In this document: positions 3,423-32,992 of the stretch, piece by piece | Layout: each line of letters begins with the position of its first letter | Position numbering within the stretch: the stretch's first letter is position 1 | Source: a virus | DNA: 45,154 nucleotides | Strand: one strand, 5' to 3' | IMG/VR virus record: IMGVR_UViG_3300012936_000033 | Span: 1 to 45,154 of that record | Translations under genes and position numbers: made by a program | The notes under the pieces: model-generated | Database searches by the model: none | What the model was told of the DNA's origin: nothing | The model's input: the letters and a program-made list of their open reading frames with translations, nothing else

Positions 3423-4391
3423 ATGAGAAAATCCGCATCGGAAATCCTAAGAAGCCTTGAATCAAGAATCGCGCGTCTTGAACGCCAAGCAAGTTTCACA
3501 GTAGGGCAAGAAGTACCTTATAAACTACCCACTCTTAAAAAAGTGATGTTAGATGGTTATGGATTCAAAGTGATAAGTGTAGGGGGTGGTTTGAGCGATA
3601 CCCTTGAATACAGTTTAACATCCGATCAAGTAGCTAAGATCAGTTCTAAGGGGAAGATTGATGTTATGCTAAAAAACATTAAACAAGAGCTAAGTTTCTC
3701 GATAGAGCCTAAACTAAAGAGAAAAGGTCGTAAAAACTTCATTGTCATCACAGAAAAACCACTTTCTCTTCTTGAAAAGCAAAGTGGCGAGACAATGAGG
3801 AAACCCGAAAATGACTTAAAGGAGTTCCTTAATTTTTGTAAAAAGTTTAACTTGAGAAAATTGGGTGATCGTGTGTGGGATGGTGAGGAAAACTTTACCG
3901 AACATGAAGATTTGTTTTTAGCTATGATGAACCCCTATGCGCGAGAGGGTCTTAACCATATCACCAGAAAAGGTGTATTTATCTTGAACCTTAGAGGTGA
4001 GGAACTAGTTAAAAATAAAAGGGCTTCTAAATCTGCTTCAACTAAGAAGAAAGCTGAAAGCTGGAATAACGAATCAGTATGGGTTTATGACCATAGTGGT
4101 ACGCAACAATGGAATTGGATTGCAACGATGGACCCATCTAGTGTCAAAGCTAGTCTAAGAAGACTAGGGGTTAGTCTCGAAGATGAAACTATTCTCAATC
4201 CGATGAAGGGAATGTCTGACTATGACATTCACATTCTTGAACTTGATGCTGTTGATTTAGAGGTTGCAGACCAAGATGCTGTGAATAGTCTTCTTGAGTC
4301 TATCAAGTTCTCACTCTTTGAAGAAGACGCAACTGATAAAAGGACTCAACAAAAGATTTGGAAGATGCTAATCACAGACAGAGGACTTTAA
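3423..4391 (+). CDS. Leader-coiled-coil protein 1, probable virion protein (322 aa)
   Basis: An upstream ATG exists at 3387, but ATGGAGAAAAAC before the ATG at 3423 provides a good ribosome-binding site. The protein then starts with MRKSASEILRSLE, the shared leader. Residues 1-24 form an amphipathic helix with hydrophobic residues at 9, 12, 16 and 19, and five other proteins here begin the same way. The rest is unrelated to those proteins as far as I can see: a beta-rich part (residues 30-105), a central helical part, a lysine/alanine/serine linker near 200-215, and an acidic C-terminal domain. Motif A lies upstream. The gene is flanked by 16-bp direct repeats. A virion role is inferred from promoter and leader only. 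Confidence 0.6.
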   Translation: MRKSASEILRSLESRIARLERQASFTVGQEVPYKLPTLKKVMLDGYGFKVISVGGGLSDTLEYSLTSDQVAKISSKGKIDVMLKNIKQELSFSIEPKLKRKGRKNFIVITEKPLSLLEKQSGETMRKPENDLKEFLNFCKKFNLRKLGDRVWDGEENFTEHEDLFLAMMNPYAREGLNHITRKGVFILNLRGEELVKNKRASKSASTKKKAESWNNESVWVYDHSGTQQWNWIATMDPSSVKASLRRLGVSLEDETILNPMKGMSDYDIHILELDAVDLEVADQDAVNSLLESIKFSLFEEDATDKRTQQKIWKMLITDRGL

Positions 4392-4403
4392 CCTTAACTA
4401 CAA
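4388..4403 (+). repeat. 16-bp direct repeat, right copy
   Basis: This is an exact copy of the sequence at 3396-4111 minus nothing else: the left copy is 3396-3411. It contains the TAA stop codon of the leader gene. Recombination between the copies would remove the gene cleanly. Confidence 0.7.
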
Positions 4404-4433
4404 AGAAGCACAGCATCATGCTTGCAGGGTACG

Positions 4434-5105
4434 CTAAAGGAACATTCTCCTTAGAGCTTGATCTCCACCTTGTGTCCACACATCGTTAGGGTCTTTTCCA
4501 CGATACTTCCACACAACGGATCTCATACCCCGTTTCTTCATTTCACGCTGAAGCCAATATGATTTCTTTTGACCTGTTTCATCATTATCATAACAGATAT
4601 AAATAGTAGAAGCGGGTGTGTAGAAACGCTCAATCATATCCATTGTGATTGCATCCATCCCAGCTCTTAATGTGGAAACTACTGCATCACATCTAGGTAT
4701 GACTTTATCTAGTGCAACTTTGTCAAAGATACCTTCAACAATCCACAAATCACCTTGGTTCCATAAAGACTTAAATCCTTCTTCTGCGCCTAATAGATAA
4801 GGATTCCATTGAGAATTTAAAGTTCGATATTGGTGTACTCTTTTAGTTCCATCTTCTTTGATTTGGCGTGTCTCCATTCCAATAATTTCACTTCTGGGTG
4901 ATGTAATTGGAATGATAAGTGAATCTTTTATTCGTTCACCCATTGATCCAAAGTTTGCTTTAAATTTCTGACATTGAACATGAGAGTGTGGCTGCCAAGA
5001 GTAAAAATTTACTTTACAACTTTCCGCTACACCCCTTGATGTTAGATAAGGAAGGTGTATAGGGTCTATGCCTATTAAACCTTTTCTTATCCATTCATCC
5101 CTCAC
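4434..5105 (-). CDS. DnaG-type primase fragment with TOPRIM domain
   Basis: The protein shows the TOPRIM pattern: LWIVEGIFDKVA with the catalytic glutamate at 124, IYICYDNDETG with the D-x-D pair at 173 and 175, and GKDPNDVW at 203-210. An N-terminal YLTSRGV segment is typical of phage and plasmid primases just before the catalytic core. There is no zinc-binding domain, and at 223 residues it is shorter than DnaG. I chose GTG at 5105 because AGGAG lies about 9 nt upstream and the overlap with the upstream gene is then only 11 nt. An ATG at 5183 would overlap by 89 nt. The likely role is RNA-primer synthesis for phage DNA replication, probably with a separate helicase outside the window. Confidence 0.75.
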   Translation of the reverse strand: MRDEWIRKGLIGIDPIHLPYLTSRGVAESCKVNFYSWQPHSHVQCQKFKANFGSMGERIKDSLIIPITSPRSEIIGMETRQIKEDGTKRVHQYRTLNSQWNPYLLGAEEGFKSLWNQGDLWIVEGIFDKVALDKVIPRCDAVVSTLRAGMDAITMDMIERFYTPASTIYICYDNDETGQKKSYWLQREMKKRGMRSVVWKYRGKDPNDVWTQGGDQALRRMFL

Positions 5106-5883
5106 GCTCAGATTCTCCTGTTGATAGTGCGCTTGCGGATTCAGTTGCCCATGAAGGAGGTTGTGCTTTACCTTCTTGAACAAGTTTAGCTAAGTCATAT
5201 CCTGACTTATAAGTTGAATCTTCACTTTGTGGTTCTTTTCCACCCATTGCATCCATATAACCTTGCATTAAAGTTGCTGGTGCTGTTGGGATAGGATTTC
5301 CAGTTCTTGTCATAGCCATAATATCTAATACCTTTTCATTGCACATGAGGTTAGCGATTTCAAAATATGAAATCCAAAAGTCGAGTCTTTGTTTATACCA
5401 TGTATTACAACGACCATAGAATCCACTATTATGATGGCAAGGGTGTAATTCTCTTTTATCCATCATAGTTAAAAGCCGTTCCATTGTATTTACAGAATAC
5501 TTTATATTTTCTAGCTTACGACATTCTCGACTAATGACATCTGATTGTTCTTTTTCAATCCAACCAACAAAGCCACGACGTCTCCTAAAAAGTGGATAAG
5601 AGTATCGTGCATGGATTTGGAACATACCACAAGCACGACCTTGATCCCCTCTTCTTATGCGTGGTCTTATTCTTGATTCAATCCAAGAGATTGCTAGTAT
5701 TCGACTATCTACATAATCAGTTTCATTATCCATCAGCTGTTTTAAGTATCTGGATAGTTGTCTTTTAGATGCGGGCCTGTGTTGAGACATTTCCCAACCT
5801 GGCTTGATGTGGACAGATGATGCATAAGATATAGTGTCTAACATACATTGAAACGATAGACTTAAAATGAAAATTAGGTTCAT
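5095..5883 (-). CDS. Exported lytic transglycosylase (SLT-like)
   Basis: A hydrophobic N-terminus (residues 1-23, ending ISYASS) looks like a Sec signal peptide. Then ISWIESR with the probable catalytic Glu69 and ACGMFQIH (84-91) match the lysozyme-like SLT fold that cleaves peptidoglycan between MurNAc and GlcNAc. A C-terminal region of about 70 residues after position 190 has no recognised fold. AAGGTG precedes the ATG. It overlaps the downstream primase by 11 nt. A second SLT-like gene lies at 8998, so the two may serve different steps, lysis and virion entry or assembly. Confidence 0.7.
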   Translation of the reverse strand: MNLIFILSLSFQCMLDTISYASSVHIKPGWEMSQHRPASKRQLSRYLKQLMDNETDYVDSRILAISWIESRIRPRIRRGDQGRACGMFQIHARYSYPLFRRRRGFVGWIEKEQSDVISRECRKLENIKYSVNTMERLLTMMDKRELHPCHHNSGFYGRCNTWYKQRLDFWISYFEIANLMCNEKVLDIMAMTRTGNPIPTAPATLMQGYMDAMGGKEPQSEDSTYKSGYDLAKLVQEGKAQPPSWATESASALSTGESEREG

Positions 5884-5893
5884 AATTCACCTT

Positions 5894-6880
5894 CTAAATT
5901 AATTCTTTGTATTCCCTTAAGATGTCTTGGGTGTAACAAATAACTATTATAGAATTCCAGCCCGAGACAATATCATAATTTTGAGTTGGGTCGCCTTTTA
6001 TCATAGTTTTTGAAAGTTTGCCACAAATCTCATCATAGATCGTGGTCAAGAACACATTCGCAACTTCAGAATCTGATTCTTTTATGTAGTTGTTGATTTC
6101 TGTGTGTAAAAGTGTTTGGTGAATCCAATCTTTCAGTTTTGTTGGTTTAAATATGTCACGAATTGTGAGCTCACATAATGCAAGAACAGGCGGGGAATTT
6201 TCATAACAACCCCTAACTTGAGGGTGTTTATATATGAACTCAATTTCAGACATGATAAAAAGATCAATGAACCGTCTTGTAAAGTATGCTTCCCAACGCG
6301 CACCCAAATCTTTAATCTTATATGGTTCATTATCAAGTAAAATATTTGGCGCATTTGTATACATCCAGTTGTGGATTTCTAAACACCAAGTCACAGGTTT
6401 CATATACCGTTTTAAATTATGCGGGAGACTTAATGGATACTCTCTTTTTAGTTGAACCGTTGAACTTTCTTTCAGACTATAAGATGGTGTTATGTTCTTT
6501 ATTTCATAACCTAGCTCTTTAAGATGGTTCTTTAAGATTCTAAAGTTGTCCCGTGTAGGACGACACCAACTATTTAAAAGAATATGGTAAAGATCAACCT
6601 CAATAAATCCATTTTCAGGTGGGTGGGTATTAAAGAAAAATTCCATATCTACTTTTACACCAGCAAAAGATTTTGGCATAAATTCGATACCATGTTCTGC
6701 TATGTATTCTTTAACTACATCTTTTATTGACACTGCATTTCCAATTTGCTTTATTTTGTGTAATAAAAGGCAAAAAGAATCAAAATCTTTGTCTTCAAGA
6801 GACCTGCGTACATATTTTGTGTTTAAGTTGTGTTGGGTCTTTGCCCAGAACAAGATTTCTACTTGATTAATTTTTTTCAT
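5894..6880 (-). CDS. Hypothetical protein (328 aa)
   Basis: A soluble, mainly helical protein of 328 residues with many aromatic and charged residues. No signal peptide, no nucleotide-binding motif and no metal-binding cluster is evident. AAAGGATC lies about 7 nt before the ATG. It is the first gene of a leftward group with the transglycosylase (10-nt gap) and the primase, so replication or lysis are both possible contexts. A partial motif A-like stretch (ATGTTTATTATAT) lies directly upstream but too close to the start to be sure. Confidence 0.65.
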   Translation of the reverse strand: MKKINQVEILFWAKTQHNLNTKYVRRSLEDKDFDSFCLLLHKIKQIGNAVSIKDVVKEYIAEHGIEFMPKSFAGVKVDMEFFFNTHPPENGFIEVDLYHILLNSWCRPTRDNFRILKNHLKELGYEIKNITPSYSLKESSTVQLKREYPLSLPHNLKRYMKPVTWCLEIHNWMYTNAPNILLDNEPYKIKDLGARWEAYFTRRFIDLFIMSEIEFIYKHPQVRGCYENSPPVLALCELTIRDIFKPTKLKDWIHQTLLHTEINNYIKESDSEVANVFLTTIYDEICGKLSKTMIKGDPTQNYDIVSGWNSIIVICYTQDILREYKELI

Positions 6881-6941
6881 TGACAGATCCTTTTATATAA
6901 TAAACATTGTTTGGCATCAACCACCAACTTAAGGAGCGTTT

Positions 6942-7547
6942 ATGTATGATTATACAAACCTCGAACCCCGTTTTAAGTGGCAAGAGGGACTGACTCCAGT
7001 ATTTTGTATCACTTTAGAGACAAAAAAACTGGGTATTGATGTAGAAAAGCACCAAGAAGACATCAAAAAACTCTTTTACAAGAGACAAGGACCAAAACTT
7101 TTGAATTCTGGTGTGAACACAGAAGAAATTCTACAAGAAGTTTTCAAAGGTATCTTAATTCGCAATAAAGGGAAGTGCCCATATAATCCAGAAAAATCCG
7201 CAATGTCTACTTATATTGTTATGGTTATTGATTGTATCACCATGAACTATATGAACAAATATAGGCGCATAAGTGAAAGATTCTTACCTGGTGTGGAAGA
7301 TGATGTGGCTTGTTCATATAATGCTTCTTATGAAGAAGACCCTTCAGACAACATTTTCTTGGCAGAAGTTCGATCTAGTTTCACTGGATCGTTGTTGAAA
7401 GTATTTGATGCACTTATGAATGGATTTAAAAAATCCCACATTAGCCGTGAATACGGTTGGGAAATTAGACTTGTGAATAAGTATATCAAACAAGTTCGAG
7501 AAAAAGTTGCTTACTTACTTGAACGAGAGGACTTAGTGTCTTGTTAA
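6942..7547 (+). CDS. Sigma-factor-like protein (RNA polymerase specificity)
   Basis: Residues 57-112 resemble sigma-70 region 2: TEEILQEVFKGIL followed by NPEKSAMSTYIVMVIDCI and a basic end NKYRR. In sigma factors this part binds core RNA polymerase and melts the -10 element. Residues 145-195 look like a region-4 helix-turn-helix (DALMNGFKKSHISREYG, then a recognition-type helix). An acidic linker joins them. At 201 residues it is the size of ECF or phage late sigma factors. AAGGAG precedes the ATG. The 3' end overlaps the thymidine kinase start by 7 nt. It is a plausible reader of motif A. The similarity is by eye and moderate. Confidence 0.55.
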   Translation: MYDYTNLEPRFKWQEGLTPVFCITLETKKLGIDVEKHQEDIKKLFYKRQGPKLLNSGVNTEEILQEVFKGILIRNKGKCPYNPEKSAMSTYIVMVIDCITMNYMNKYRRISERFLPGVEDDVACSYNASYEEDPSDNIFLAEVRSSFTGSLLKVFDALMNGFKKSHISREYGWEIRLVNKYIKQVREKVAYLLEREDLVSC

Positions 7548-11090: not shown

Positions 11091-11103
11091 TAGTTTATTT
11101 ATC
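11088..11103 (+). promoter_or_regulatory. Motif A (putative late promoter) of the 11139 block
   Basis: TAATAGTTTATTTATC overlaps the stop codon of the previous gene. It is identical over 15 bases to the minus-strand copy at 39984-39999 upstream of the sheath group. Confidence 0.6.
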
Positions 11104-11138: not shown

Positions 11139-11660
11139 ATGAGCAATCTTAAATATAGAATCGCCAGTTTGATGAGGCGAGTAGCAGAGCTTGAACAAGC
11201 CCAATCTGCTGAAAGTGTTTTTTTTGATAATCCTACAAAGAGATCAGTTAGGAATTTAGCAGAATCAAAAGCAATCACCAACAAAGTAGAAACCGCTGAA
11301 AAAGCTATCCAGTCAGGTGAGATGAAAAAAGATGAAAAGCTCATCCAAAGTGAAGCTGTTATCGCACCACCACCTCCAGAAGAAATAGTCAAAAAACCAG
11401 GTGGTAAAGAACTTAGCACACTCAATCAATTCATTGTGAAAACAGAAGAACCTATTAGTGGTGTACCAGATTCATTCGATGAAGTGCCTAAAGCTAAACC
11501 ACCAGCTACTAAAGAAACCGATAAAACTAAGGTCAAAAAAGACCTAGTTGAAAAAGTAGTTGAAAGGCATCTTGAAAAGGAAGAAATGGCTAAAGCCGTT
11601 AAGAAAGTCTTACAAGATAAAAAAGATAAAGGTGAAATTGAAAATGGAGGTAAAGCATAA
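11139..11660 (+). CDS. Charged coiled-coil protein, possible scaffold-like virion protein
   Basis: This 173-residue protein starts with a helix (YRIASLMRRVAELEQAQ) resembling a diverged copy of the RIARLE leader used by neighbouring genes. It is followed by a disordered, lysine/glutamate-rich region, a proline run (APPPPEE) and a long charged C-terminal helix (about residues 128-165). That composition fits scaffolding or internal head proteins, but no homologue is recognised. AAAGGAG is 6 nt upstream and motif A lies at 11088. The stop overlaps the next start (TAATG), so expression is coupled to the probable decoration protein. Confidence 0.55.
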   Translation: MSNLKYRIASLMRRVAELEQAQSAESVFFDNPTKRSVRNLAESKAITNKVETAEKAIQSGEMKKDEKLIQSEAVIAPPPPEEIVKKPGGKELSTLNQFIVKTEEPISGVPDSFDEVPKAKPPATKETDKTKVKKDLVEKVVERHLEKEEMAKAVKKVLQDKKDKGEIENGGKA

Positions 11661-12232: not shown

Positions 12233-12769
12233 ATGAAAAGATCCGCTTCTGAAATCCTAAGAAACCTTGAGTTAAGGATTGCTAAACTTGAAAAATCAAG
12301 TGGCATTTTTCAAAAATCATCACGTCCAAAAAAAACCAATGGTCTAACTTTAGTTGAATCTGAAAGTGGATTCTACAAGTTTGAAATAGATGGTAATGCA
12401 ACTCTCACATTTAAAGATGTTTTTGATGTTGTTAGTCACGCAATCGTTTACTACCCTAGTAATCAATGGTACTTACAAGAACTTGATAAGGAAGCTAGAG
12501 ACTATTCAGGTGGTGAATACAATGATTATGATTCTTATTCAAAAGCCTTCCAAAAGATGTTTAATAAGATCATTATGAAACACATCAAAGTTTCAACTAC
12601 CCGTAGTGGTGATACTGTCAATGTTTTCTTCAATCCCCAAGGTCTGTTTAAAGACATTAAAATGATTTACAGTCTGGGGTTAGATTTTAGACTCAAATCC
12701 AAAATAAAAGCAAATCAAGGTGTGTTGATTAAAATGATAGACAATGCGATTCGCACACTTGAATCTTAA
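12233..12769 (+). CDS. Leader-coiled-coil protein 2, probable virion protein (178 aa)
   Basis: It opens with MKRSASEILRNLELRIAKLE, the shared leader helix, and then a serine/lysine linker to about residue 38. The main domain starts with SGFYKFEIDGN, similar to a segment (FGYYEIDFNHF) of the leader protein at 32507-32992, and continues with a VVSHAIVYYPSNQW segment loosely matching FIYHFIPSNGL in the leader protein at 31363. AAAGGA is 7 nt before the ATG, 12 nt after the previous gene, so it belongs to the same operon. Function is unknown. Confidence 0.65.
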   Translation: MKRSASEILRNLELRIAKLEKSSGIFQKSSRPKKTNGLTLVESESGFYKFEIDGNATLTFKDVFDVVSHAIVYYPSNQWYLQELDKEARDYSGGEYNDYDSYSKAFQKMFNKIIMKHIKVSTTRSGDTVNVFFNPQGLFKDIKMIYSLGLDFRLKSKIKANQGVLIKMIDNAIRTLES

Positions 12770-12798: not shown

Positions 12799-13218
12799 AT
12801 GAGAAGAACAGCATCAGAAATCCTAAGAAACCTTGAGATGAGAATCGCAAGACTTGAAAAAACATCTAGTACACCTAAAGCCTTAGTTGAACTTGGCCGT
12901 AGGGGAAGAGATCACCTTAATACTTTGATCTTTGAATGGCTAGGTACTTATGGTGAAGACGATTATAAATCCTATGTGGCGGTTGATGTTGAAGACCAAG
13001 TTGAATTCTTTGATTCATCTAAAACTTATGTGAAGTTATATGTTGAACTTGAGTACATTGATATTCGTGATGATCGTGAAAAAACTGAAAATGTAGTTTT
13101 CCATCTATCACTTCCAGCGCGTGAAATTAAATATGACAAACAAGATCAGGTTATTGAAAATTCTGTTTGGAAATCTACCATTATGACGGATTCTAGTGAT
13201 TTAGATCAGGTAGGGTGA
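12799..13218 (+). CDS. Leader-coiled-coil protein 3, probable virion protein (139 aa)
   Basis: An ATG at 12769 is possible, but AAAGGGAG sits 7 nt before the ATG at 12799, and the protein then begins MRRTASEILRNLEMRIARLE, the shared leader. The rest is acidic and strand-rich (YVKLYVELEYIDIRDD, VVFHLSLPAREIKY). The DNA of the leader differs from its neighbour mainly at codon third positions beyond an identical stretch, so both recent copying and protein-level constraint are possible. The stop overlaps the ribosome-binding region of the next gene. Confidence 0.65.
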   Translation: MRRTASEILRNLEMRIARLEKTSSTPKALVELGRRGRDHLNTLIFEWLGTYGEDDYKSYVAVDVEDQVEFFDSSKTYVKLYVELEYIDIRDDREKTENVVFHLSLPAREIKYDKQDQVIENSVWKSTIMTDSSDLDQVG

Positions 13219-13220: not shown

Positions 13221-14258
13221 ATGAAAAACGCACTAAGAAATCTTGAACAAAGAATTGCGCGTCTTGAAAAACAAGCCACCACTAAAGAAGAAGCCTATCA
13301 AGCGCTAAGGCGTTTTGTATCCCAAAACAAATCAAACACAAGATTGCTAGTTGAATTAAGTGGGTATCTTCAAATACTTAAAGATGGTGGAGACCTAAGT
13401 GAAAGAGACTTAAAAAGTATCCGTAAGCAAATGCATCGAAATAACGCATCAGATTTAGCGGATATGTTTAGGTCTAACCCAACTGGTCGTAAACCATCTC
13501 CAAGAGTTGTTTCAAAGAAACCTAAACCAGCACCTAAACCAGCACCTAAACCAGCAAAAGATGTGATTCCCAAAAGTCTCCTTTCTTTTGCTAGGGGTTT
13601 TAAAAAGAAAGTTGTAGGTCTTTTTGAAAATTCAAGATCAGTCACACACACTAGAAAATATGATAAGATCAGAAAATTCAGGCACACTGGAGATAAAGAA
13701 TTCTATCAAACGGTACTCACCTTTAAAGGTACAGATGCTGCTATCATTCTTATTGAACCAGTGAATGATGATTACACTTTCATGCCAGATAGTCGTAATG
13801 TCTTTTGGAAATTTAAAGATTACGATACAAACTATATACAAGAAGAATTAGGTAATTCAGGTTTACTCAAAACAACTATCAAAGATATAGTCAAATTCTT
13901 GTTGACCGAAGCTAGCACTACAGCTGGTGGCTTTAGTGCTAGTTATGGTAGTCGTGATGTTAGTTTTTCACGCAACGACAGCGACTGGGAATTCATGTTA
14001 GAACCAGGCGGACGTGAAAGACAAGACCATTGGCATTTTAGAATGAACATTGATTATGAAGATGAGTATTACGATTGGGAAAGTGATGCTTGGCGTGACT
14101 GGTCAGAAAACTATGAATATCCCCTAATGGAAAGCACAGAAGATGAACTTAAAAATAAGTTTCCGATCTTGAAAGCTAACCAAGGTAAATGGTCTGTGGG
14201 TGTTGGTGAAAAAGGTCATGTCTGGATCAATATTAGCAAGAGCTTAATTACAGGATAA
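13221..14258 (+). CDS. Leader-coiled-coil protein 4 with PKPAPKPA linker (345 aa)
   Basis: It begins MKNALRNLEQRIARLEKQ, a shortened form of the shared leader lacking four residues (SASE). A helical domain follows (about 20-85), then a basic and proline-rich linker (KKPKPAPKPAPKPAKD), a basic stretch, and a C-terminal domain (about 150-345) rich in Trp, Tyr and Asp. I chose ATG 13221 over GTG 13215 because TAGGGTG is better spaced. A linker of this type is known from phage and TonB-like proteins that need a flexible spacer. No enzymatic motif is visible. Motif A for the next gene begins just after its stop. Confidence 0.65.
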   Translation: MKNALRNLEQRIARLEKQATTKEEAYQALRRFVSQNKSNTRLLVELSGYLQILKDGGDLSERDLKSIRKQMHRNNASDLADMFRSNPTGRKPSPRVVSKKPKPAPKPAPKPAKDVIPKSLLSFARGFKKKVVGLFENSRSVTHTRKYDKIRKFRHTGDKEFYQTVLTFKGTDAAIILIEPVNDDYTFMPDSRNVFWKFKDYDTNYIQEELGNSGLLKTTIKDIVKFLLTEASTTAGGFSASYGSRDVSFSRNDSDWEFMLEPGGRERQDHWHFRMNIDYEDEYYDWESDAWRDWSENYEYPLMESTEDELKNKFPILKANQGKWSVGVGEKGHVWINISKSLITG

Positions 14259-14313: not shown

Positions 14314-15854
14314 TGAAAAGGTTAGCAAAAGCGGATGTGAATCCCATTAGACAAAGATCACAGTTTACTTGCGTGACAACATCAACTTGCATGGCATTAA
14401 ACGCACTTGGTGTTAAATGTAATGAAGATGAAGTTAATAGTGTTATTGGCGCTAAAGCAATGCAAGGTGCTAGATGGGAAGAAGTTTTAGCTTGTGCGCA
14501 GTATTTTGGTTGTAGGGCTACATTAACTACACCATCTACACTCACACAAGTGAAGTCGTGGACAGATCAAGGTAAACCTGTTCTTATTGCCTGGAATCCA
14601 GAAGGTAGAGACTGGAGCCATGCTAGTTTGATCTTTGATGTAACTGGTGAAAAAGGGAACTTTGTCGTTCATGTAGCAGACCCAAATATGCCTAATCCAG
14701 ATAAAACTGTCCGTGAAGTTAGTGAAGATGACTTCTATGCTAAATGGTATGAGAAATGGCCAAACTACTTGGTTCGCAGACCAGCTTTAATGATTGATCG
14801 TGAAATATGTGAGAATGGAAAACAAATCATGGCTAGTTCAAACACAATGTTTACAAAAGCGGTTAAAGAAATTGTATCTAGTGTAAAACACTTAGGATTT
14901 TTAACCATGCTCGATAAGTGGTCTTGTAAAGCAGACGCTAATGGCATTTACCTTGTCTATAAAGTTTCAGTGCCAGGTGTAGGTCAATACTCACTTGAGT
15001 TTGAACAAAACAACACATCAAGCCGTGCTTTTCTATTTGAAGGCGGAGAGTTAATCCGAACTTGTGATGGTGTTTCAACATTCCCTGAAATCATAAGACA
15101 TTTGCCGCCAACAACATCTAAAATGGCAGCAAAGATGCCTTGTTTGCAATCTGAACTAGATATTTCAAATGAAATGCTATCTCAAATCCAACTACTTGCA
15201 CAAAATGGATTGTCAAGGAAAGAGCTTGCGATTGAAATTGCAAACTTACTTCCAAATGCAAAACCAGATGCGCAACTAAGTGTAGTTGATCTAGTTATAA
15301 GAGACATCAATAATCGAATGGCAAGTAAACTTGCTCGTGTTCATCTTGAGCGTAAAAAATGGATCAAAGCACCACCCAAGCAATTTGACCAAAACCAACA
15401 AGAACAAGTGTGGAACATTTACGACCTGTCTTATTCCAAAGTAGGTAAGCACATTAGTTCTAAATCTGAATTGATGAACAAGTATGACCTTTTTTGGGTT
15501 GTAGATGTTGATGGTGATGAAGAAATAGACGCATTTGTTAGTTATAGCACTACACCACATGGCAAGAAAATTGGATTGATTGGATCAGATGGTTCAAAAG
15601 AAGGCCGAAACGCCATGATGCTAAAAGGCGCTGAACTTCTTTTAGATCATGGTTGGTATGCAGAAGTAGATTCAAGATTTGCAAGGCTTCTAAAGAAAAG
15701 ACTTGGTGTAAACCATATTGAAGATGAAGCTACCGTAAGAATGGTTATCCAGAAACCACTCGAATGGGACGATAAAAAGAAATCATACACTAGAAATCTT
15801 GAGGGTAAAGGACTGGTTGAAAAATACCTAGTAGGATTACCACGCATTTTATAG
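14313..15854 (+). CDS. C39-like cysteine peptidase fusion, probable virion protein (513 aa)
   Basis: The N-terminal 150 residues resemble a C39/papain-like peptidase: Q17-F-T-C20 (the Gln of the oxyanion hole and catalytic Cys), W-S-H103-ASLIFDV, and ADPN with Asp123. A central beta-rich part follows (about 170-270), then a helical segment (about 285-345) with the linker NNRMASKLARVH. The C-terminal domain (about 352-500) has VVDVDGDEEIDAFV and GLIGSDGSKEGRNA, a pattern I know from proteins of large phages, loosely GNAT-like. It could process virion or host proteins. Translation is under a tight RBS hairpin. Confidence 0.55.
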   Translation: MKRLAKADVNPIRQRSQFTCVTTSTCMALNALGVKCNEDEVNSVIGAKAMQGARWEEVLACAQYFGCRATLTTPSTLTQVKSWTDQGKPVLIAWNPEGRDWSHASLIFDVTGEKGNFVVHVADPNMPNPDKTVREVSEDDFYAKWYEKWPNYLVRRPALMIDREICENGKQIMASSNTMFTKAVKEIVSSVKHLGFLTMLDKWSCKADANGIYLVYKVSVPGVGQYSLEFEQNNTSSRAFLFEGGELIRTCDGVSTFPEIIRHLPPTTSKMAAKMPCLQSELDISNEMLSQIQLLAQNGLSRKELAIEIANLLPNAKPDAQLSVVDLVIRDINNRMASKLARVHLERKKWIKAPPKQFDQNQQEQVWNIYDLSYSKVGKHISSKSELMNKYDLFWVVDVDGDEEIDAFVSYSTTPHGKKIGLIGSDGSKEGRNAMMLKGAELLLDHGWYAEVDSRFARLLKKRLGVNHIEDEATVRMVIQKPLEWDDKKKSYTRNLEGKGLVEKYLVGLPRIL

Positions 15855-15864
15855 TTCATTTATA
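15850..15864 (+). promoter_or_regulatory. Motif A (putative late promoter)
   Basis: TATAGTTCATTTATA covers the stop codon of the peptidase gene and lies 35 nt before the next start. It shares ATAGTTCATTTAT with the minus-strand copy at 32489. Confidence 0.5.
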
Positions 15865-15899
15865 CTTTGTCTAAATGAAGAACTTAAGGAGAAATAAAA

Positions 15900-24399: not shown

Positions 24400-27300
24400 A
24401 TGTCATCAACATTGGATGCAATAAGAAAAACAATAGAAGCCCAAAATGAATCCAATGGGCCGAAATTAGTTCCAAACTCAGCAGACACATCTTTAGTTAA
24501 TTCAAGAGAACAAAGTGTGTTAATCAAAGGCTCTAATGCCACAGTCAAAAATTCTTTTGAAGCAGGTGGAGTCACGATTGAAGGTGGATCACCTAATCGA
24601 CAAAGCATTGATGGTGGAAATATCACACTTCAAGGTGGACACCAACCTATCACTACAAGCGCACATCAAGGTGGTGATGTAAATATCTTTAGTGGTGATG
24701 GATATAAAGGTGGTGATGTGTGGATTGTAGGTGGGGATAATCAAGATAATTCAGCCACAAGTTTAACTGGATCAATCACAATCCAAACTGGTGGTCAAGA
24801 CTTAACAAGCGATCAACATACTGGTGGAATTTTAATTAACACGGGTAATGTAAGTGCGGTTAAAAATTCAGGTACGATTGACATTAAAACAGGTACACCA
24901 CACACAAATACTGGGTCTACAAGTGGTGCTATTACAATTGAATCTGGTGGGACAGCTAATACCAATAATGCAGGACATTCAGGTGATGTAAGTTTAAAAT
25001 CGGGACGCGGTGGCACAGATGAATCTGGTGCGGTTAACATATCAACGGGTAATACGAGCTCCGCAGGGACTGGAAACTTTATCGCATCTACTGGTTTTTC
25101 AGATAGTGGGGATAGTGGCTTAATCAATATTAGAAGTGGAGTTTCGTCAAGTGGGAATAGTGGAACAATTGCTTTTTTCACTGGTCAATCTATAGATGGG
25201 AATAGTGGAAACGCTAAAATGTATACAGGCACATCTACTAACGGTGCTAGTGGATATATTACTATGTATACAGGTAATGTTTCGGAGAATAATAACAGTG
25301 GCGCTTTTGATATAAAAACAGGTACACCACATACAAACACAGCTTCAACTAGCGGCGTGATTACAATTCAAACAGGTGGTACTGCGAATACTGCTAATGC
25401 AGGACATTCTGGCAACATTATAATAAAAACGGGTCAAGGTGGTGATGATGAATCTGGGGGTATGTACCTTTCTACGGGGAATACTGGTAGTGGGAATAGT
25501 GGTGATGCATATATATTCACAGGTGTTGCAGATAGTGGTAATAGTGGTTTAGTTTCTATTCAAAGTGGTGCTTCAACTACAGGAGCATCAGGAAATGTTT
25601 CTTTGTATAGTAGTGGAGCAAGCACAGGCACTGGCATTGCTTCACTATTTTCTGGAAACGCATCAAGTGGTGCAAGTGGTTTAGTAAGAATTTTCTCTGG
25701 AGACGCATCAGGAGATAGTGGTCAGATACTTGTCCATTCGGGTGTGTGTGGTGGGAATAGTGGTAAAGTTTCTATTCGAAGTGGTGGCACCACTTCTGGT
25801 AGTGGAACCAGTGGTGATGTCGAACTATACAGTGGTGTAACTAATAATGGTACTAGTGGTTCAGCTGTGGTGAAGTCTGGCGATTCTGATAGTGGTGCTA
25901 CAGGTAGTGCTTCTCTATACACAGGAAACGCTACGGGTGCCGCAAGTGGGGATACTACACTTAAAACAGGAACAAGCAATGTCTTATCTGGTAATCTTAT
26001 ATTAACTACAGGAAATAATGTAGGTGTGAGTGGAAGCTCTGGTTCAAGTGGTGAGGTTGCGGTTAGCACGGGAACTACAGATGGTGGTACCAGTGGTGCC
26101 ATCACACTCGCAACGGGCAACAACGCGGGTGGTACTTCTGGTAGTTTGAACATTAAAAGTGGAACGGGTACATTCACTGGCAGTGTAACACTTAACAGCG
26201 GACAAGCCACAACAGGAAGAAGTGGGGATATTAATATTTATAGTTCAGATGGTGAAAACACAACTGGCGAGATGTTAATTTATACTGGATCAAACGAAAA
26301 ACCTGGCCAAGACAGAAGTGGTGACACAAGTAAAAGTGGACCTATGTACATCAACACGGGTAGGTGTGATGCAAATGGCTCAGGTCAACTAGGTCTTCAA
26401 AGTGGAGTTACTGATAATTGCGTTAGTGGTAGCGTCTACTTAAAATCAGGAAATGCTTTTGGTCCGAATTCTGGTAGTGGCACTTTAACTCTTGAAAGTG
26501 GATCAGTAAACGCAGCTGGTAATAACAGTGGTGCTGTTTCCTTAAAATCGGGAAATGCCGCTGGTGGAGATAGTGGCGACCTCACTATTGGTTCTGGTTC
26601 TGGTTCTTCAGGACACCATAGTGGTCATATCACTATTCAATCTGGTTTAGGTAATGGTGGTGATTCTGGTTATTTAAAATTATTAACGGGTGATTCAGAT
26701 TCTAGTGATGAATCTGGACAGATAGAAATACAAACGGGAGCTAATGGTGGTGGATTCATATCTATAAAAACAGGAACTTCACCAAGCGTATCTGGACATA
26801 TAGATATAGAAACGGGAACTTCAGACGGCGAAAGTGGGCAGATAGATATAAAAACGGGAATTGTTTCTTCTGGGATTTCTGGACCAATTGCCATTGAAAC
26901 AGGAAATGCAAGCGGGAATAGTGGTGATGTTTCCTTAAAGTCTGGAAACTCTACTGGTGGAGATAGTGGCGATCTCACTATTCAATCTGGTTCTGGTTCT
27001 TCAGGAAACCAAAGTGGTAATATCACAGTTCAATCTGGTTTAGGTAATGGTGGTGATTCTGGGTTTCTAAAATTATTAACGGGTAATTCAGATACGACAG
27101 ATGAATCTGGGCAGATAGAAATACAAACGGGTGATGCTGGTGGTGGTGGTGCCATCACGATAAAGTCAGGTACAGGCGTAGGTGGCTCAGGACAGATCAC
27201 ACTTGAAACAGGACAAGCTACGAACGGAGTATCAGGTGAAATACAATTAAAAACTGGCACTGTAAGTTCCACAAATTATCAAAATGGTGGAACAGTAAAC

Positions 27301-28380
27301 GCAGCTGGTCTTGAAGGATCAATATCACTTTTGACAGGCTCTTGGGGAAATTATCGAACAAGAACGGGAAACATTGACATTAAGACAGGTTCAAATGGTT
27401 TTACTAGCCTTACTCTTGATGAATTTTATTCTGGTCAATTAACACTTGAAACGGGTGGTGTTGATCGTGGTAAGTCGGGAAATGTTTCAATAAAAAGCGG
27501 CCAAGGGTACAATGAGTCTGGGACAATCACAATAGAAAGTGGTGAAGGAACACGAGCATCAGGTGGCAAGTCAGGTGATGTTTCTTTAAAGTCTGGAGCC
27601 TCAACAGATGTTAGTGGCAACGTCACAATAGAAAGTGGAGGAACAACAAACGCACCTGGCGCGTCAGGAAATGTTTCATTAAAGACAGGAGATTCTGCAG
27701 ATGAATCTAGTGGTGATATAACTATAGAAACAGGAACTACTCAAGGAGTAGCGATCTCCGACAAGACTGGATCAATCACCATTAAAACAGGCACAACATC
27801 AGGGAATCCAGTGCGTGGTGAAATCAAGTTAGAATCAAATTCATTAAGTCTTGAATTTGAAGACGAAAATAGAATGTTACTTCATGGTGCTGATGGAACA
27901 TTAAAGGCTTTAAACTATCAAGTTCTTGGATATGGTACAGTAAGATTACTTAACCCTCCTTCAGGCACTGAAATTTCCGTGATCCCACTGTTCTTCAAAG
28001 ATCGAAGCACAAATATAGGCTCTAATCCCGCAGATAATGAGATAGATACTCGGGTTGGTGGTATAGATACTTATCAAGATATGACTGAACAATATAGAGG
28101 TATAGATATTTGGAATGGTACATCACTTGACAGCAATCTCAATCTTTCTGCAAACTTTCTTTCGGTTACTATTGAAATGACAACAACAGATTCAGATATT
28201 TATTCACTTAGGTTTGACCATGTGAAAAACCCAGTATTAAATGCGACCGTACAAACTTATAGCGGTGAACCTTTTATGTACCTTGTCCTTTCAGACACTT
28301 CCACTTCTGGAATTGATATAAATGCCACCAACTGTCCAGACATCTATATCCATTACACACTTAGACATCGTTTTTATTAA
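24400..28380 (+). CDS. Giant repetitive tail-fibre/adhesin-like protein (1326 aa)
   Basis: Residues from about 40 to 1150 consist of dozens of short repeats, about 13-17 residues each, of the form S-G-x-[IV]-x-[IL]-x-[ST]-G-x-x-x-x-x-G. Each would give one or two strands of a beta-solenoid or triple-stranded fibre. The C-terminal part (about 1160-1326) is not repetitive and looks globular (GYGTVRLLNPPSG to IYIHYTLRHRFY), typical of a receptor-binding or trimerisation tip. The N-terminus (1-40) is short and helical and may attach to the tail. AAGGAG is 8 nt upstream. The gene overlaps the convergent PyrFE gene by 20 nt. At 1326 residues it is among the largest genes here. Confidence 0.65.
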   Translation: MSSTLDAIRKTIEAQNESNGPKLVPNSADTSLVNSREQSVLIKGSNATVKNSFEAGGVTIEGGSPNRQSIDGGNITLQGGHQPITTSAHQGGDVNIFSGDGYKGGDVWIVGGDNQDNSATSLTGSITIQTGGQDLTSDQHTGGILINTGNVSAVKNSGTIDIKTGTPHTNTGSTSGAITIESGGTANTNNAGHSGDVSLKSGRGGTDESGAVNISTGNTSSAGTGNFIASTGFSDSGDSGLINIRSGVSSSGNSGTIAFFTGQSIDGNSGNAKMYTGTSTNGASGYITMYTGNVSENNNSGAFDIKTGTPHTNTASTSGVITIQTGGTANTANAGHSGNIIIKTGQGGDDESGGMYLSTGNTGSGNSGDAYIFTGVADSGNSGLVSIQSGASTTGASGNVSLYSSGASTGTGIASLFSGNASSGASGLVRIFSGDASGDSGQILVHSGVCGGNSGKVSIRSGGTTSGSGTSGDVELYSGVTNNGTSGSAVVKSGDSDSGATGSASLYTGNATGAASGDTTLKTGTSNVLSGNLILTTGNNVGVSGSSGSSGEVAVSTGTTDGGTSGAITLATGNNAGGTSGSLNIKSGTGTFTGSVTLNSGQATTGRSGDINIYSSDGENTTGEMLIYTGSNEKPGQDRSGDTSKSGPMYINTGRCDANGSGQLGLQSGVTDNCVSGSVYLKSGNAFGPNSGSGTLTLESGSVNAAGNNSGAVSLKSGNAAGGDSGDLTIGSGSGSSGHHSGHITIQSGLGNGGDSGYLKLLTGDSDSSDESGQIEIQTGANGGGFISIKTGTSPSVSGHIDIETGTSDGESGQIDIKTGIVSSGISGPIAIETGNASGNSGDVSLKSGNSTGGDSGDLTIQSGSGSSGNQSGNITVQSGLGNGGDSGFLKLLTGNSDTTDESGQIEIQTGDAGGGGAITIKSGTGVGGSGQITLETGQATNGVSGEIQLKTGTVSSTNYQNGGTVNAAGLEGSISLLTGSWGNYRTRTGNIDIKTGSNGFTSLTLDEFYSGQLTLETGGVDRGKSGNVSIKSGQGYNESGTITIESGEGTRASGGKSGDVSLKSGASTDVSGNVTIESGGTTNAPGASGNVSLKTGDSADESSGDITIETGTTQGVAISDKTGSITIKTGTTSGNPVRGEIKLESNSLSLEFEDENRMLLHGADGTLKALNYQVLGYGTVRLLNPPSGTEISVIPLFFKDRSTNIGSNPADNEIDTRVGGIDTYQDMTEQYRGIDIWNGTSLDSNLNLSANFLSVTIEMTTTDSDIYSLRFDHVKNPVLNATVQTYSGEPFMYLVLSDTSTSGIDINATNCPDIYIHYTLRHRFY
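26562..27131 (+). repeat. Intragenic duplication in the fibre gene (two copies, offset 393 nt)
   Basis: 26562-26738 and 26955-27131 align at a constant offset of 393 nt (131 codons) with scattered substitutions; both encode GSGSSG, GLGNGGDSG, LKLLTG and ESGQIEIQTG in the same order. A second, more diverged pair exists with an offset of 429 nt (24880s and 25310s: AAAACAGGTACACCA in both). The gene has grown by segmental duplication. Confidence 0.7.
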
Positions 28381-29542
28381 TAAGACTCTTTAAATCGACC
28401 CCTAAAGCCTTTAAAGACTCAAACCCACCCATACCCCTATCTACAACACAAATCGCTTTATTAACCACATATCCTTGCTCTCTAATGGCATGGATAACCT
28501 TAATAAGTGATCCACCTGTAGATACAACATCCTCTATTAGAACAATCGGCAATCCTTTGTCTATATTGCCTTCAAGAATCTTACCCGTACCATGCGCTTT
28601 AGATTCTGTTCGTGCATAGCCAAATGGACGATTCAAATGAATACCTAACGATGTTGCAAATGGAATCCCCGCGGTTGCCACACCCACTATCTGGTCGGAT
28701 TCAGATATAAGTTCCGCTAAGTCATGTGTGATTCGTGAAAAGAGCTCTGGGAAAGAACTCACACTTTTCAAGTCAATGTAGTAATCCGATTTCTTTCCAC
28801 TCGCTAATGTAAAATCGCCTCGCTTAATAAGTTCTCGTGTTTCTAATTCAAAACCTAGATCAAAGTAAGACTGCTTACTATATTCTTCTGCATAAGCAGC
28901 AGGGTCTTTAGCGTTTAATATTGTTCGACTCATTGAATAAAGTGTTCTAGGGACTGGGTATCTAATTCCACCACCTTGCGCTCCAATACCTGGTGAAAGA
29001 AACCAAGTGTTTGGTAATCGCTTTCGTATTTCATGTAAGTACGCTTCTTTATTACCCGCAACGACTAAGCCTAAGTTCAGATCATTATGACACCAATAAT
29101 AAAGTTGTTCTTGAACCTGGCTTTGAATTTCATGTGCATAAAGATTCGTTGTTCGACCTAAGATAAAAACACCCTTATCTTTACGAATTAAATTCTTAAG
29201 GGATTCGTACCCACAATATGGATGAACGGTCATTGCAGAAGCGCCCAAATCATCATAGATATATTTTGCATACTCATCGTTGGTATGTGGAACATCACCA
29301 ACCTTGCCGTCGTAAATCCAAAGAATCTTCTTTTCATTCAAGTAATTTGTAATAGATTTTATATGTTTTTCATTACCATGATAGAAAGCGGGGTTCAACT
29401 TATAACAGATAACATAGGGCTCTGTTTTATCAATAATTGAACATATTCTATCAATCCTACCATGTGGGTTTGGATCATCTAAACCCACACACAAACTTGA
29501 TTTTTTTAATTTTGATAAGGCTTTTAATGTCTTGTAAAACAT
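28361..29542 (-). CDS. pyrFE: Bifunctional UMP synthase: OMP decarboxylase-orotate phosphoribosyltransferase
   Basis: Residues 1-215 are OMP decarboxylase: CVGLDDP (18-24), CYKLNPAFY, DGKVGDVPHT (78-87) with the D-x-K-x-x-D triad (78, 80, 83), and SPGIG (183-187). Residues 225-393 are orotate phosphoribosyltransferase: FTLASGKKSDYYIDLK (244-259), VGVATAGIPFA (286-296), and the PRPP loop LIEDVVSTGGSL (335-346). Together they convert orotate with PRPP to OMP and then to UMP. The order decarboxylase first is opposite to that in animals and plants and is known from some bacteria and kinetoplastids. The gene runs opposite to, and 20 nt into, the fibre gene, and only 21 bp separate its start from the divergent lipoprotein gene. 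UMP synthase is very rare in phages. Confidence 0.92.
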   Translation of the reverse strand: MFYKTLKALSKLKKSSLCVGLDDPNPHGRIDRICSIIDKTEPYVICYKLNPAFYHGNEKHIKSITNYLNEKKILWIYDGKVGDVPHTNDEYAKYIYDDLGASAMTVHPYCGYESLKNLIRKDKGVFILGRTTNLYAHEIQSQVQEQLYYWCHNDLNLGLVVAGNKEAYLHEIRKRLPNTWFLSPGIGAQGGGIRYPVPRTLYSMSRTILNAKDPAAYAEEYSKQSYFDLGFELETRELIKRGDFTLASGKKSDYYIDLKSVSSFPELFSRITHDLAELISESDQIVGVATAGIPFATSLGIHLNRPFGYARTESKAHGTGKILEGNIDKGLPIVLIEDVVSTGGSLIKVIHAIREQGYVVNKAICVVDRGMGGFESLKALGVDLKSLINKNDV

Positions 29543-29563
29543 TCTATTCTCTCGGAGTCTATA

Positions 29564-29803: not shown

Positions 29804-29806
29804 TAA

Positions 29807-30337: not shown

Positions 30338-30340
30338 AAG

Positions 30341-30366
30341 TATCCCCTAAATCATATAATAGACAT
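30341..30366 (+). promoter_or_regulatory. Motif B-like element upstream of the Myb-repeat gene
   Basis: TATCCCCTAAATCATATAAT followed by AGACAT resembles motif B (CCCCTAAAT then CTATAA). TAATAG and TTTATA also occur over 30358-30377 with extra spacing, so a mixed A/B reading is possible. Confidence 0.3.
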
Positions 30367-30390
30367 TACATTTATAGGAACGGAAATAAT

Positions 30391-31023: not shown

Positions 31024-31366
31024 TTTAATGTTGTTGCCTTTAATTGCTCAAGCTCAAGTTGGTTGTATTGACGCAGATTATTCAAAAATTGAATCTGCAA
31101 ATGTAGTTCGCAACAAAGATACCTTAACTATTAATGTAGTTATTCAGCCCCCAACCGAAATTGATGTGGAAACACTACATGAAGGCAATGTCCTACAAAT
31201 TCGTATCTATGGAACATATATAATGCAAGACCACATTCAAGCGAGTCCAGGTGTAAGCCTTTTAGAGTACACAGGGTTTACTCAAATAAATGTGATTGGT
31301 GGGAAACAGGTTCACCATGTGAAAGCACAAGGTTCAAACAAACTCGTGATTACCGTTGGTTTTTAG
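30989..31366 (+). CDS. Secreted protein with signal peptide (125 aa)
   Basis: It starts inside the Myb-repeat gene and begins MLDIKKNVILLSLMLLPLIAQAQ, a signal peptide with predicted cleavage after AQA. The mature part is beta-rich (LTINVVIQPPTEIDV, VLQIRIYGTYI, HHVKAQGSNKLVITVGF) with a single cysteine. It should be periplasmic. Overlap of 35 nt with the upstream gene and of 4 nt with the convergent leader protein shows how compact this stretch is. No family is recognised. Confidence 0.55.
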   Translation: MLDIKKNVILLSLMLLPLIAQAQVGCIDADYSKIESANVVRNKDTLTINVVIQPPTEIDVETLHEGNVLQIRIYGTYIMQDHIQASPGVSLLEYTGFTQINVIGGKQVHHVKAQGSNKLVITVGF

Positions 31367-32445
31367 CGTCTTCTTGAAGAAGTGTAGATCATTCCAAGAC
31401 CGTCAGTGAATTCACCTTTTTCAAACTTAACTTTGAAATCCTTAGCTACTTGCTTAACTTCTTTTTCAACTTTGGGGTATCTTTTCTTATCCATGAGGAA
31501 ACTAAGAACACCGTCATCAAAGTCAATATCTTCAACACCAAAAGTAGAAGAAAGCTCACTTCTTAATTCTTCTACATTAACAGTCCCTGCAAGAACGATG
31601 TGTCCTGCAACCTTACGAGTAGAAGCAACACGCATTACATCACCATAGAATCTTCTCAATTGCTCAAGAATGAAAGGTGCTTTAACCTTGAACCTACGAG
31701 TTAGCTTTTTAACAATCTGATCTGATTCAAAACCATCTTCTACAAGTTCATGCAATGCACCATAGAAGTCATGCTGACCACCCGAAAAAGGAATATCATC
31801 ATAGGCGTTTGGTGGAATCGCCTTTGATCTCACCTTATCTAAGTCTCTAGGCATTATGTTGCGAGATGGACGACGAAAAATGTCTCGTGGAACACGGCGT
31901 CTTGTCTTACCTGCTAGACGATAAGTGCGTGGGTCGATCTTGTTTGGTTCGACTTTCCCATACTTATCCATAAGTTCTTTTACCGCTTCCTTAATAGCAG
32001 TATCCGTTTCATATTCATCTGCCCAATCAAGAACATAGTCAAGGTCATCATCAAGATTCATCTCAAACTCTTTAATAACAGCTTTAAGGAAATTATCACT
32101 GTTGTAAAGGTTGAACTGAATAGCTTTTTCACCTATTCTCACACGACTCAATTCTTCAATTAAAGAAGAACGATCAAAAGCATTTTCTACAAGATCATCA
32201 ACAAAGTTGTACGGTGGTAAACCATTGCTAGGAATGAAATGATAAATAAAGCAGCTTTTAAAAGTCTCTTTGATACTGGAAATAGTGCGCTTGTTATTGT
32301 ATTTCCCACCCACATAAATGCGGATAAAGCCTTTGCCTTTTTCAATCTTAAAAAGATCATTTGGGTTGTATATTACGGCTGATCTTTCAAGTCTAGCAAT
32401 CCTAGTCTCAAGATTTCGAATAATTTCTGAAGCTGTCCTTCTCAT
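31363..32445 (-). CDS. Leader-coiled-coil protein 5, probable virion protein (360 aa)
   Basis: The protein begins MRRTASEIIRNLETRIARLE, the shared leader, on the minus strand. A domain at about 30-150 (FIRIYVGGKYNNKRTISS, then FIYHFIPSNGL) loosely resembles the leader protein at 12233. A basic linker (LAGKTRRRVPRDIFRRP) follows, then a helical segment with VASTRKVAGHIVLAG near residue 275. A C-terminal alpha/beta domain (about 285-360) ends in RRR. AAGGG is 8 nt upstream and motif A lies at 32489. It is co-directional with the next leader protein and sits 3' of it. No enzymatic motif was recognised. Confidence 0.6.
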   Translation of the reverse strand: MRRTASEIIRNLETRIARLERSAVIYNPNDLFKIEKGKGFIRIYVGGKYNNKRTISSIKETFKSCFIYHFIPSNGLPPYNFVDDLVENAFDRSSLIEELSRVRIGEKAIQFNLYNSDNFLKAVIKEFEMNLDDDLDYVLDWADEYETDTAIKEAVKELMDKYGKVEPNKIDPRTYRLAGKTRRRVPRDIFRRPSRNIMPRDLDKVRSKAIPPNAYDDIPFSGGQHDFYGALHELVEDGFESDQIVKKLTRRFKVKAPFILEQLRRFYGDVMRVASTRKVAGHIVLAGTVNVEELRSELSSTFGVEDIDFDDGVLSFLMDKKRYPKVEKEVKQVAKDFKVKFEKGEFTDGLGMIYTSSRRR

Positions 32446-32454
32446 TTTAATTCC

Positions 32455-32482
32455 CTTAAGTGAATATGTTAGATCACTTAAG
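32455..32482 (-). promoter_or_regulatory. 9-bp hairpin next to the ribosome-binding site of the gene at 32445
   Basis: CTTAAGTGA and TCACTTAAG (32455-32463 and 32474-32482) pair perfectly around a 10-nt loop; the downstream arm runs into the AAGGG ribosome-binding site. Unlike 14271, the motif A copy (32489-32504) lies fully outside the arm, so transcripts from it would probably keep the stem. Confidence 0.4.
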
Positions 32483-32488
32483 TGGAAT

Positions 32489-32504
32489 CATAAATGAACT
32501 ATTA
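32489..32504 (-). promoter_or_regulatory. Motif A (putative late promoter), leftward
   Basis: On the minus strand TAATAGTTCATTTATG lies 44 nt before the leader protein start at 32445 and 2 nt past the stop of the upstream leader gene. Confidence 0.6.
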
Positions 32505-32506
32505 AT

Positions 32507-32992
32507 TCACTTAGCTTCTCTAATATACTTTTCAGCATCTCTAATTGAGATTAACTCACCGTTGACCAAACTACCACCAGCTAAAAGAGCAGACCAATAC
32601 TTAAAGTACATAACGGTACTATGACTGTATTGCCCCGCGTATTCATTTGGAGAACCATCCCAATTTCTTTCAGGTGCGTGTTGGTCTACATAAAAAGCGA
32701 TTAAAACAGTGACTTCTGCACCATCTGGGTTATACCGAGTAACGGGTACTGTCTTAGATTGTTCCGCTACTATTCTCATGTGAGTCAAAACATATTGATC
32801 TTTACTTAATCCTTCTTTCCTAAGAAAATGATTAAAGTCAATTTCGTAGTAACCAAAGTCAGAGTGGGTAGGTGTTATGTCTCTACTCTTTGGTCTTTCT
32901 TTCTTAATCTGTTTAGCAAAGGTTGACTTCTTTTCAAGTCTTGCAATTCTTGATTCAAGATTTCTTAGGGTTTCAGAAGCAGATTTTTTCAT
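32507..32992 (-). CDS. Leader-coiled-coil protein 6, probable virion protein (161 aa)
   Basis: A longer frame would begin at 33031, but AAAGGA sits 8 nt before ATG 32992 and the protein then starts MKKSASETLRNLESRIARLE, the shared leader. After a basic linker (KQIKKERPKSRDITP) the domain contains HSDFGYYEIDFNHF, similar to SGFYKFEIDGN in the leader protein at 12233, and a single-domain alpha/beta core with PERNWDGSPNEYAGQYSHS. Both proteins therefore may share more than the leader. Motif A overlaps the stop of thyX upstream. Confidence 0.65.
   Translation of the reverse strand: MKKSASETLRNLESRIARLEKKSTFAKQIKKERPKSRDITPTHSDFGYYEIDFNHFLRKEGLSKDQYVLTHMRIVAEQSKTVPVTRYNPDGAEVTVLIAFYVDQHAPERNWDGSPNEYAGQYSHSTVMYFKYWSALLAGGSLVNGELISIRDAEKYIREAK

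Follow-up and report, generated by a model that had tools for sequence, protein, structure and literature searches.

A two-heptad coiled-coil leader on unrelated proteins of a jumbo phage group as a probable prohead-targeting propeptide

The stretch of DNA analyzed here, referred to as the window, is the complete IMG/VR record IMGVR_UViG_3300012936_000033 (45,154 bases) and is probably a piece of a larger phage. Six of its proteins begin with variants of a 20-residue leader that was also found, in up to 31 copies per genome, in related contigs. Probably, this leader is a modular, independently evolved propeptide for prohead targeting, analogous to the capsid-targeting sequence (CTS) of the T4 internal proteins but used on a far larger scale. 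Judged from sequence patterns, a role of the leader in sorting proteins into the head is quite likely, and its proteolytic removal is about evenly balanced.

Leader copies, sequence and cargo

The majority of the window genes were homologous to a 375,691-base contig (G001), largely in blocks with a common gene order. The window tail sheath (1,612 aa) matched uncultured phage LR745208 and Tunturiibacter phage Tunturi_5, and Bacillus phage G matched it over the C-terminal part. Leader copies were counted in eight fully read contigs of 45-376 kb (G001, G002, G003, G004, G006, G007, G008 and the window). An earlier note on this DNA had placed the leader on six proteins, starting at 3423, 12233, 12799 and 13221 on the plus strand and at 32445 and 32992 on the minus strand, and a search of the record returned exactly those six (E = 6e-8 to 8e-4). 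Mechanical open reading frames of 3423, 12799, 13221 and 32992 open slightly upstream of the leader methionine, which is the likelier true start. The leaders of the window, with a diverged seventh, are the following:

3423..3485, plus strand: leader MRKSASEILRSLESRIARLER, then QAS; protein 3423-4391, with a body homologous to a 114-aa leader protein at 95435 of G001
11139..11198, plus strand: diverged leader MSNLKYRIASLMRRVAELEQ; protein 11139-11660, with a G003 homologue LRNLFLRVAKLEAAS
12233..12295, plus strand: leader MKRSASEILRNLELRIAKLEK; protein 12233-12769
12799..12861, plus strand: leader MRRTASEILRNLEMRIARLEK; protein 12799-13218
13221..13271, plus strand: shortened leader MKNALRNLEQRIARLEK, then QAT; protein 13221-14258
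32383..32445, minus strand: leader MRRTASEIIRNLETRIARLER; protein 31363-32445
32930..32992, minus strand: leader MKKSASETLRNLESRIARLEK; protein 32507-32992

The weaker leader proposed earlier for the 11139 protein is plausible: the gene has the common promoter at 11091, and the start of its G003 homologue, MLERKLRNLFLRVAKLEAAS, points to a diverged member. The bodies of the 3423, 12799, 13221 and 32445 proteins have a homologue in G001, whereas those of 12233 and 32992 have none there beyond the leader. The G001 homologue of the 12799 protein carries a diverged, internal leader (RTRRASDVIYELEGRIARLEK), and the G007 homologue of the 13221 protein a full-length one.

A scan of viral contigs with the six window leaders gave 72 loci, spread over many contigs of jumbo size. 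The eight related contigs held 125 leader copies, 118 of which lay at or beside a methionine start; the other copies corresponded to open frames running into the leader, most of them with a methionine and ribosome-binding site of their own, and to truly internal or C-terminal copies. Clustering of the bodies at blastp E 1e-3 gave 93 unrelated families across the eight contigs, 75 of them with a single member, which agrees with the earlier description of diverging bodies and indicated that the leader is a free unit and not part of one larger domain. Searches of Pfam and PHROGs with the six window proteins and the 11139 protein returned nothing above chance, so that no described family covered the leader in them. 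Only one weak partial match (LR745208, E 0.1) was obtained among Tunturi_5, LR745208 and Bacillus phage G, the leader was absent from 50,697 phage records at the sensitivity used, and it was not found in 84,980 prokaryote genomes, a scan that yielded no relative. When contigs were chosen by their capsid protein alone, 8 of 19 carried the leader, each of them with a capsid protein at least 95% identical to that of G001. At 46291 (minus strand) of G007, a 445-aa open frame starts with one leader and has a second full copy near residue 301 and a third, weak one, which looks like a series of fused leader proteins.

The leader follows the 20-residue pattern M-[RK][RK]-[ST]ASE-[IV][IL]-R-x-LE-x-R-[IV]-A-R-LE, with the consensus M-R-R-[ST]-A-S-E-[IV]-[IL]-R-x-L-E-x-R-[IV]-A-R-L-E-[KR]. 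Anchored conservation figures are partly fixed by the core pattern that served as anchor; an unanchored alignment of 121 proteins, independent of that effect, gave L12, R15 and E20 as invariant and E13, A17 and L19 as near-invariant. The amphipathic helix seen earlier, with hydrophobic residues at 9, 12, 16 and 19, corresponds to an a-d-a-d seam (I9-L12-I16-L19), and the core is a two-heptad coiled coil in which R15-I16-x-x-L19-E20 forms, in heptad register, the R-h-x-x-h-E motif in nearly all copies. R-h-x-x-h-E is a motif of trimeric coiled coils, and [ST]xxE is a helix N-cap. GCN4-type coiled-coil peptides were the best matches of the leader profile in the PDB (3w8v, 2o7h; profile E about 0.005). 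Weak AlphaFold models (mean pLDDT 60 and 48) were obtained for two window proteins, with no significant match in a PDB fold search; the model of the 32445 protein places residues 5-22 in a helix, with a low-confidence linker after it. Leaders of G003 retain the core despite other N-terminal residues (MNKVSAQQIRSLEMRIARLEKEAG, RQLTASQKIAILENRVAQLEKQA), and the functional unit is therefore LExR[IV]AxLE. Selection on the amino acids, also part of the earlier claim, was borne out by pairwise comparison among copies, with differences at the three codon positions of 0.13/0.16/0.41 in the window and 0.26/0.14/0.48 in G001, and with a synonymous share of codon pairs of 31%. Variation at third positions is thus about two- to threefold that at the other positions, indicating that the peptide itself is conserved.

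The proteins carrying the leader are small (median 165 aa, none >433), and their bodies tend to be more basic, with a median pI of 7.9 vs. 6.1 for other proteins (p = 4e-4). Turnover of the bodies was very fast: none of 31 leader bodies was shared between G001 and G003, as compared to 159 of 338 other genes, and five other comparisons gave a similar contrast. Rearrangement was also seen, the 360-aa window protein (31363-32445) matching two adjacent G001 leader genes (145303, 145958) joined with loss of the second leader, and a 285-residue body occurring with the leader in G007 and without it in G002 and G001. A domain scan of 121 leader proteins gave scattered pentapeptide repeat (Qnr/MfpA-like), WGR and JmjC/cupin matches, with no function in common. 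One leader protein family has scaffold-like ADDMWADDLEADD repeats, and leader genes adjoin the capsid operon in G006, G003 and G001.

The [RK]xA[SG] motif and a sister tag

In 76 of the 118 leader copies, LE was immediately followed by [RK]x[ASG]. Among the remaining 42, [RK]xA[SGAN] was displaced by 1-7 residues in 24, against a background of 3.6% in the bodies (Fisher p = 4e-23), as in LE-GKTAS, LE-GGRTAS, LE-SENAKTAG and LE-ANLNRTAS. Because its identity stays while its spacing changes, the motif lies outside the helix unit. The T4-like L/I-x-E and the giant-phage A-x-E were also considered as cut sites and rejected, neither being conserved.

When all genes were ranked by their excess of [RK]xA[SG] after removal of the leader regions, the putative scaffold and the head maturation protease were among the top four in each of five genomes, and a protein of 783-1,035 aa ranked first in all five. 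Among the top genes of Tunturi_5 are gp328, annotated as a DNA ejection protein, and the gene that follows the protease. The head protease retains KVR[IV]ASG about 25 residues in (RIRVASG in G004), and the capsid protein, that of Tunturi_5 included, retains GRxKLAAS near residue 28. The simplest reading of these sequence patterns is that [RK]xA[SG] would be the recognition site of the head protease. The homologues without leader (G002, G001) of the G007 leader protein with the 285-residue body have RKAS at the same body junction, and a further occurrence lies between domains of the 360-aa window protein, where MRVASTRKVAGHIV marks the start of the shared C-terminal part, a domain found directly after the leader in locus L074:

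31594..31635, minus strand: inter-domain stretch MRVASTRKVAGHIV with [RK]xA[SG], at the start of the part shared with the second G001 protein (145958)

Another recurring short helix, RVA[SN]RYM[KE]A, was observed close to either terminus of several unrelated proteins, often beside K[TQ]A[AS] (15201-16274, 261620-262156 and 203252-203752 of G001; genes 15900 and 16894 of the window).

An unbiased search for N termini common to unrelated bodies recovered the RIARLE leader in G001 (29 genes). In sister jumbo phages, which lack the RIARLE leader, a second, unrelated leader, M..LRSKLIRLAHxNPELRxxLLPLLKxA[AGS], appeared in the N-terminal sharing scan on 8, 3 and 5 proteins of G030, G033 and LR745208, respectively (loci L188-L207, L298-L320). 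It starts within five residues of the methionine and usually ends in K-x-A; LR745208 has it at 11 places, with one of the genes adjoining the scaffold gene. Each lineage thus seems to have a tag of its own, laid out in the same way and possibly matched to the scaffold of that lineage. A coiled coil is present in the scaffold of five phages with the RIARLE leader and missing from the scaffolds of phages with the second leader (G030, LR745208), which fits a docking partner.

A broader proposal, which we hold tentatively and at slightly less than even confidence, is that jumbo phages of this capsid lineage load cargo in general by lineage-specific, interchangeable address tags. A cassette of late promoter, 5' RNA, helix and protease site would turn any gene into head cargo. 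Sister clades would have two or more unrelated tags, among them the RIARLE coiled coil and LRSKLIRLAHxNPELRxxLLPLLKxA, and every tag would be matched to the scaffold of its clade and end in the same protease-type motif.

Upstream signals and neighbouring genes

A promoter-like box, TAGTTTNTTTAT, is common to leader genes, typically 40-60 nt before the start. It preceded 50 of 118 leader genes vs. 110 of 1,832 others (odds ratio 11.5, p = 2e-26). In G001 it also precedes decoration and capsid genes, the head-protease operon, a baseplate gene and the genes that come before portal and sheath, and no box was found before the G001 homologues of the Tunturi_5 DNA polymerase, UvsX, DnaB helicase, SbcD and clamp loader. 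Nor was the box found in Tunturi_5 or in the searched 400 kb of LR745208. With its promoter shared by capsid and tail operons, the leader is not demonstrably limited to non-virion proteins; such a limit had been named earlier as an outcome that would speak against it as a virion signal. Boxes and a 5' RNA of the window are listed below:

3363..3374, plus strand: promoter-like TAGTTTGTTTAT, about 60 nt upstream of the leader start
11091..11102, plus strand: promoter TAGTTTATTTAT of the 11139/11660 genes, a short way before three leader genes
32446..32490, minus strand: 5' leader RNA of the 32445 gene, with a predicted hairpin hiding the ribosome-binding site (minimum free energy -18.5 kcal/mol, z -5.3)
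32490..32501, minus strand: promoter-like TAGTTCATTTAT of the 32445 gene
33038..33049, minus strand: promoter-like TAGTATGTTTAT of the 32992 gene
39985..39996, minus strand: promoter TAGTTTATTTAT before the 39514 gene and the tail sheath (34670-39508), which ties leader genes to virion genes

In G001 and G002, further upstream sequence is common to leader genes (GTGATC, TTAACC); in G001, TTAACC was upstream of 16 of 30 leader genes vs. 9 of 409 others. Some leader mRNAs (G006, G001 and the window) are predicted to fold the ribosome-binding site into a hairpin. Such hairpins, just after TAGTTTNTTTAT in G001, G004, G006 and the window, show paired changes between copies (CTCCAAGAT/ATCTTGGAG, CTCCGAGAT/ATCTCGGAG). 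Several T4 genes are under late-only translation control, which the leader mRNA hairpins resemble. The hairpin was discarded as a universal part of the cassette, since only G001, G004 and G006 showed a clear enrichment and G002 had none of it.

Other genes were recognized beside these features. Directly upstream of the 32992 leader gene, 33050-33868 (minus strand) encodes, by eye, a ThyX-type thymidylate synthase with the motif RHRxxSxxxxSxR, and 28361-29542 (minus strand) looks, also by eye, like a metabolic gene in which orotidine-5'-phosphate decarboxylase is fused to orotate phosphoribosyltransferase. The region 24400-28380 encodes a 1,326-aa protein consisting nearly entirely of short SG-rich repeats (type SGxVxLxSG), with a shorter homologue in G001. 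An intein with a LAGLIDADG domain interrupts the terminase homologue of G001 (3258-7340).

Interpretation and comparison with known systems

According to the mechanism that we propose, small accessory genes would be expressed together with virion genes from TAGTTTNTTTAT promoters, as their sequence association suggests, and presumably late. The N-terminal helix, capped by [ST]xxE and spanning two heptads that end in R-h-x-x-h-E, would dock in the prohead core on a partner that also forms a coiled coil. For this dock, the conserved LKAANARLARKVRKL segment of the scaffold is the best candidate, an assignment that is possible and on the doubtful side. The head maturation protease would then cut after [RK]-x-A, at [SG], freeing the body and shedding the leader, and the bodies would remain inside the head, probably to be injected together with the DNA as effectors whose set changes quickly.

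Several observations weigh against this interpretation. At least five leader copies are truly internal or C-terminal, without a start codon of their own, and a recognizable [RK]xA nearby was missing in 18 of the 118 copies. The known head proteases of giant phages and T4 cut after Glu, not Ala. Proteins without a known role contain the [RK]xA[SG] motif as well, and finding it enriched in scaffold and protease does not amount to five independent results because the genes are homologous and the genomes related. The TAGTTTNTTTAT association was not significant in G003 or G008 and was marginal in the window. A related scaffold coiled coil is present in G024, where no leader was found, so that docking on it stays hypothetical. 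The parallel with the T4 CTS drawn in the earlier note is supported in part: the displaced [RK]xA[SG] motif, its enrichment in scaffold and head protease and the fast turnover of the cargo would agree with it, and the internal and C-terminal copies would not.

These last copies, as well as those without [RK]xA, would suit a tag that is never processed, namely a docking handle that is left in place and whose coiled coil attaches to one shared hub of the phage (the interior of the capsid, the tail or a compartment inside the cell). The coiled-coil motif and the PDB matches are compatible with such a handle, which we regard as unlikely, for a permanent handle needs neither the persistence of [RK]xA[SG] just past the helix despite changes of spacing nor its recurrence in scaffold and protease. 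The same trimer motif and the GCN4-type peptides at the top of the PDB matches would also be expected if the leader were a self-associating segment by which each body forms homotrimers; however, a near-identical helix on about 30 proteins of one genome would give mixed heterotrimers, two heptads alone are marginal, and the bodies have no common fold or class calling for trimers, all of which leaves this explanation with little probability.

A similarly small probability is given to a selfish or recombinational cassette, in which promoter, 5' leader RNA and coding leader are copied together as recombination homology and the peptide has no sorting role. Such a cassette would account for the shared upstream region, with TTAACC in G001, and for the quick turnover of bodies, but third codon positions have diverged while residues were kept, and in G003 the peptide core persists although its N-terminal residues differ and the upstream DNA is shared to a small extent. 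The basic N-terminal MRR and the amphipathic helix could, by binding membrane, bring proteins to the inner membrane, where T4-like proheads start; this is very improbable, as a coiled coil accounts better for the near-invariant E13, R15 and E20 and the narrow hydrophobic seam beside them.

If the leader marks head cargo, as the prohead-targeting interpretation holds, dozens of families of unknown function would have a likely place, probably as injected effectors such as anti-defence proteins. The leader would make the choice of internal proteins by a giant phage testable in a single fusion experiment and would provide a short peptide with which foreign proteins could be loaded into capsids of very large size. 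For an uncultured group, the likely protease motif opens the same kind of access to head maturation.

The T4 internal proteins IPI-IPIII and Alt carry a CTS, which gp21 cuts after L/I-x-E (PMC9026906), and the internal-protein genes of related phages have been recognised by their shared signal (PMC12373910). Both systems have a short N-terminal peptide common to small basic proteins unrelated in sequence, which form a fast-evolving accessory cargo. In contrast, no similarity to the T4 peptide was noted, and the leader ends without L/I-x-E, the conserved motif being [RK]-x-A-[SG], so that by cleavage motif it does not belong to the CTS family. T4 has three internal proteins vs. up to 31 leader-bearing proteins per genome here, recognisable by sequence alone, and some of the leader copies are internal or C-terminal.

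Giant myoviruses such as SPN3US and phiKZ are similar in having a head protease and N-terminal propeptides; the latter are cut after A-x-E or S-x-E, most of them are longer than 100 residues, and gp53 and gp54 of SPN3US have identical 15-residue N termini (PMC5694885, PMC10052503). Unlike in our case, the N-terminal sharing reported there is between paralogues. An A-x-E/S-x-E site is not conserved in the leaders, in which ASE is common at residues 5-7 and missing in most of those of G003 (VSAQQI, TASQKI), where the LExRxAxLE core stays.

Herpesvirus assemblin, of a related class of maturational proteases, has processing sites between Ala and Ser, the position also proposed for the leader motif ([RK]xA|S); it has another host domain and another set of substrates. 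GCN4 derivatives with the R-h-x-x-h-E trimeric coiled coil have the motif that RIARLE of the leader matches, whereas the leader comprises only two heptads and is attached to many unrelated proteins.

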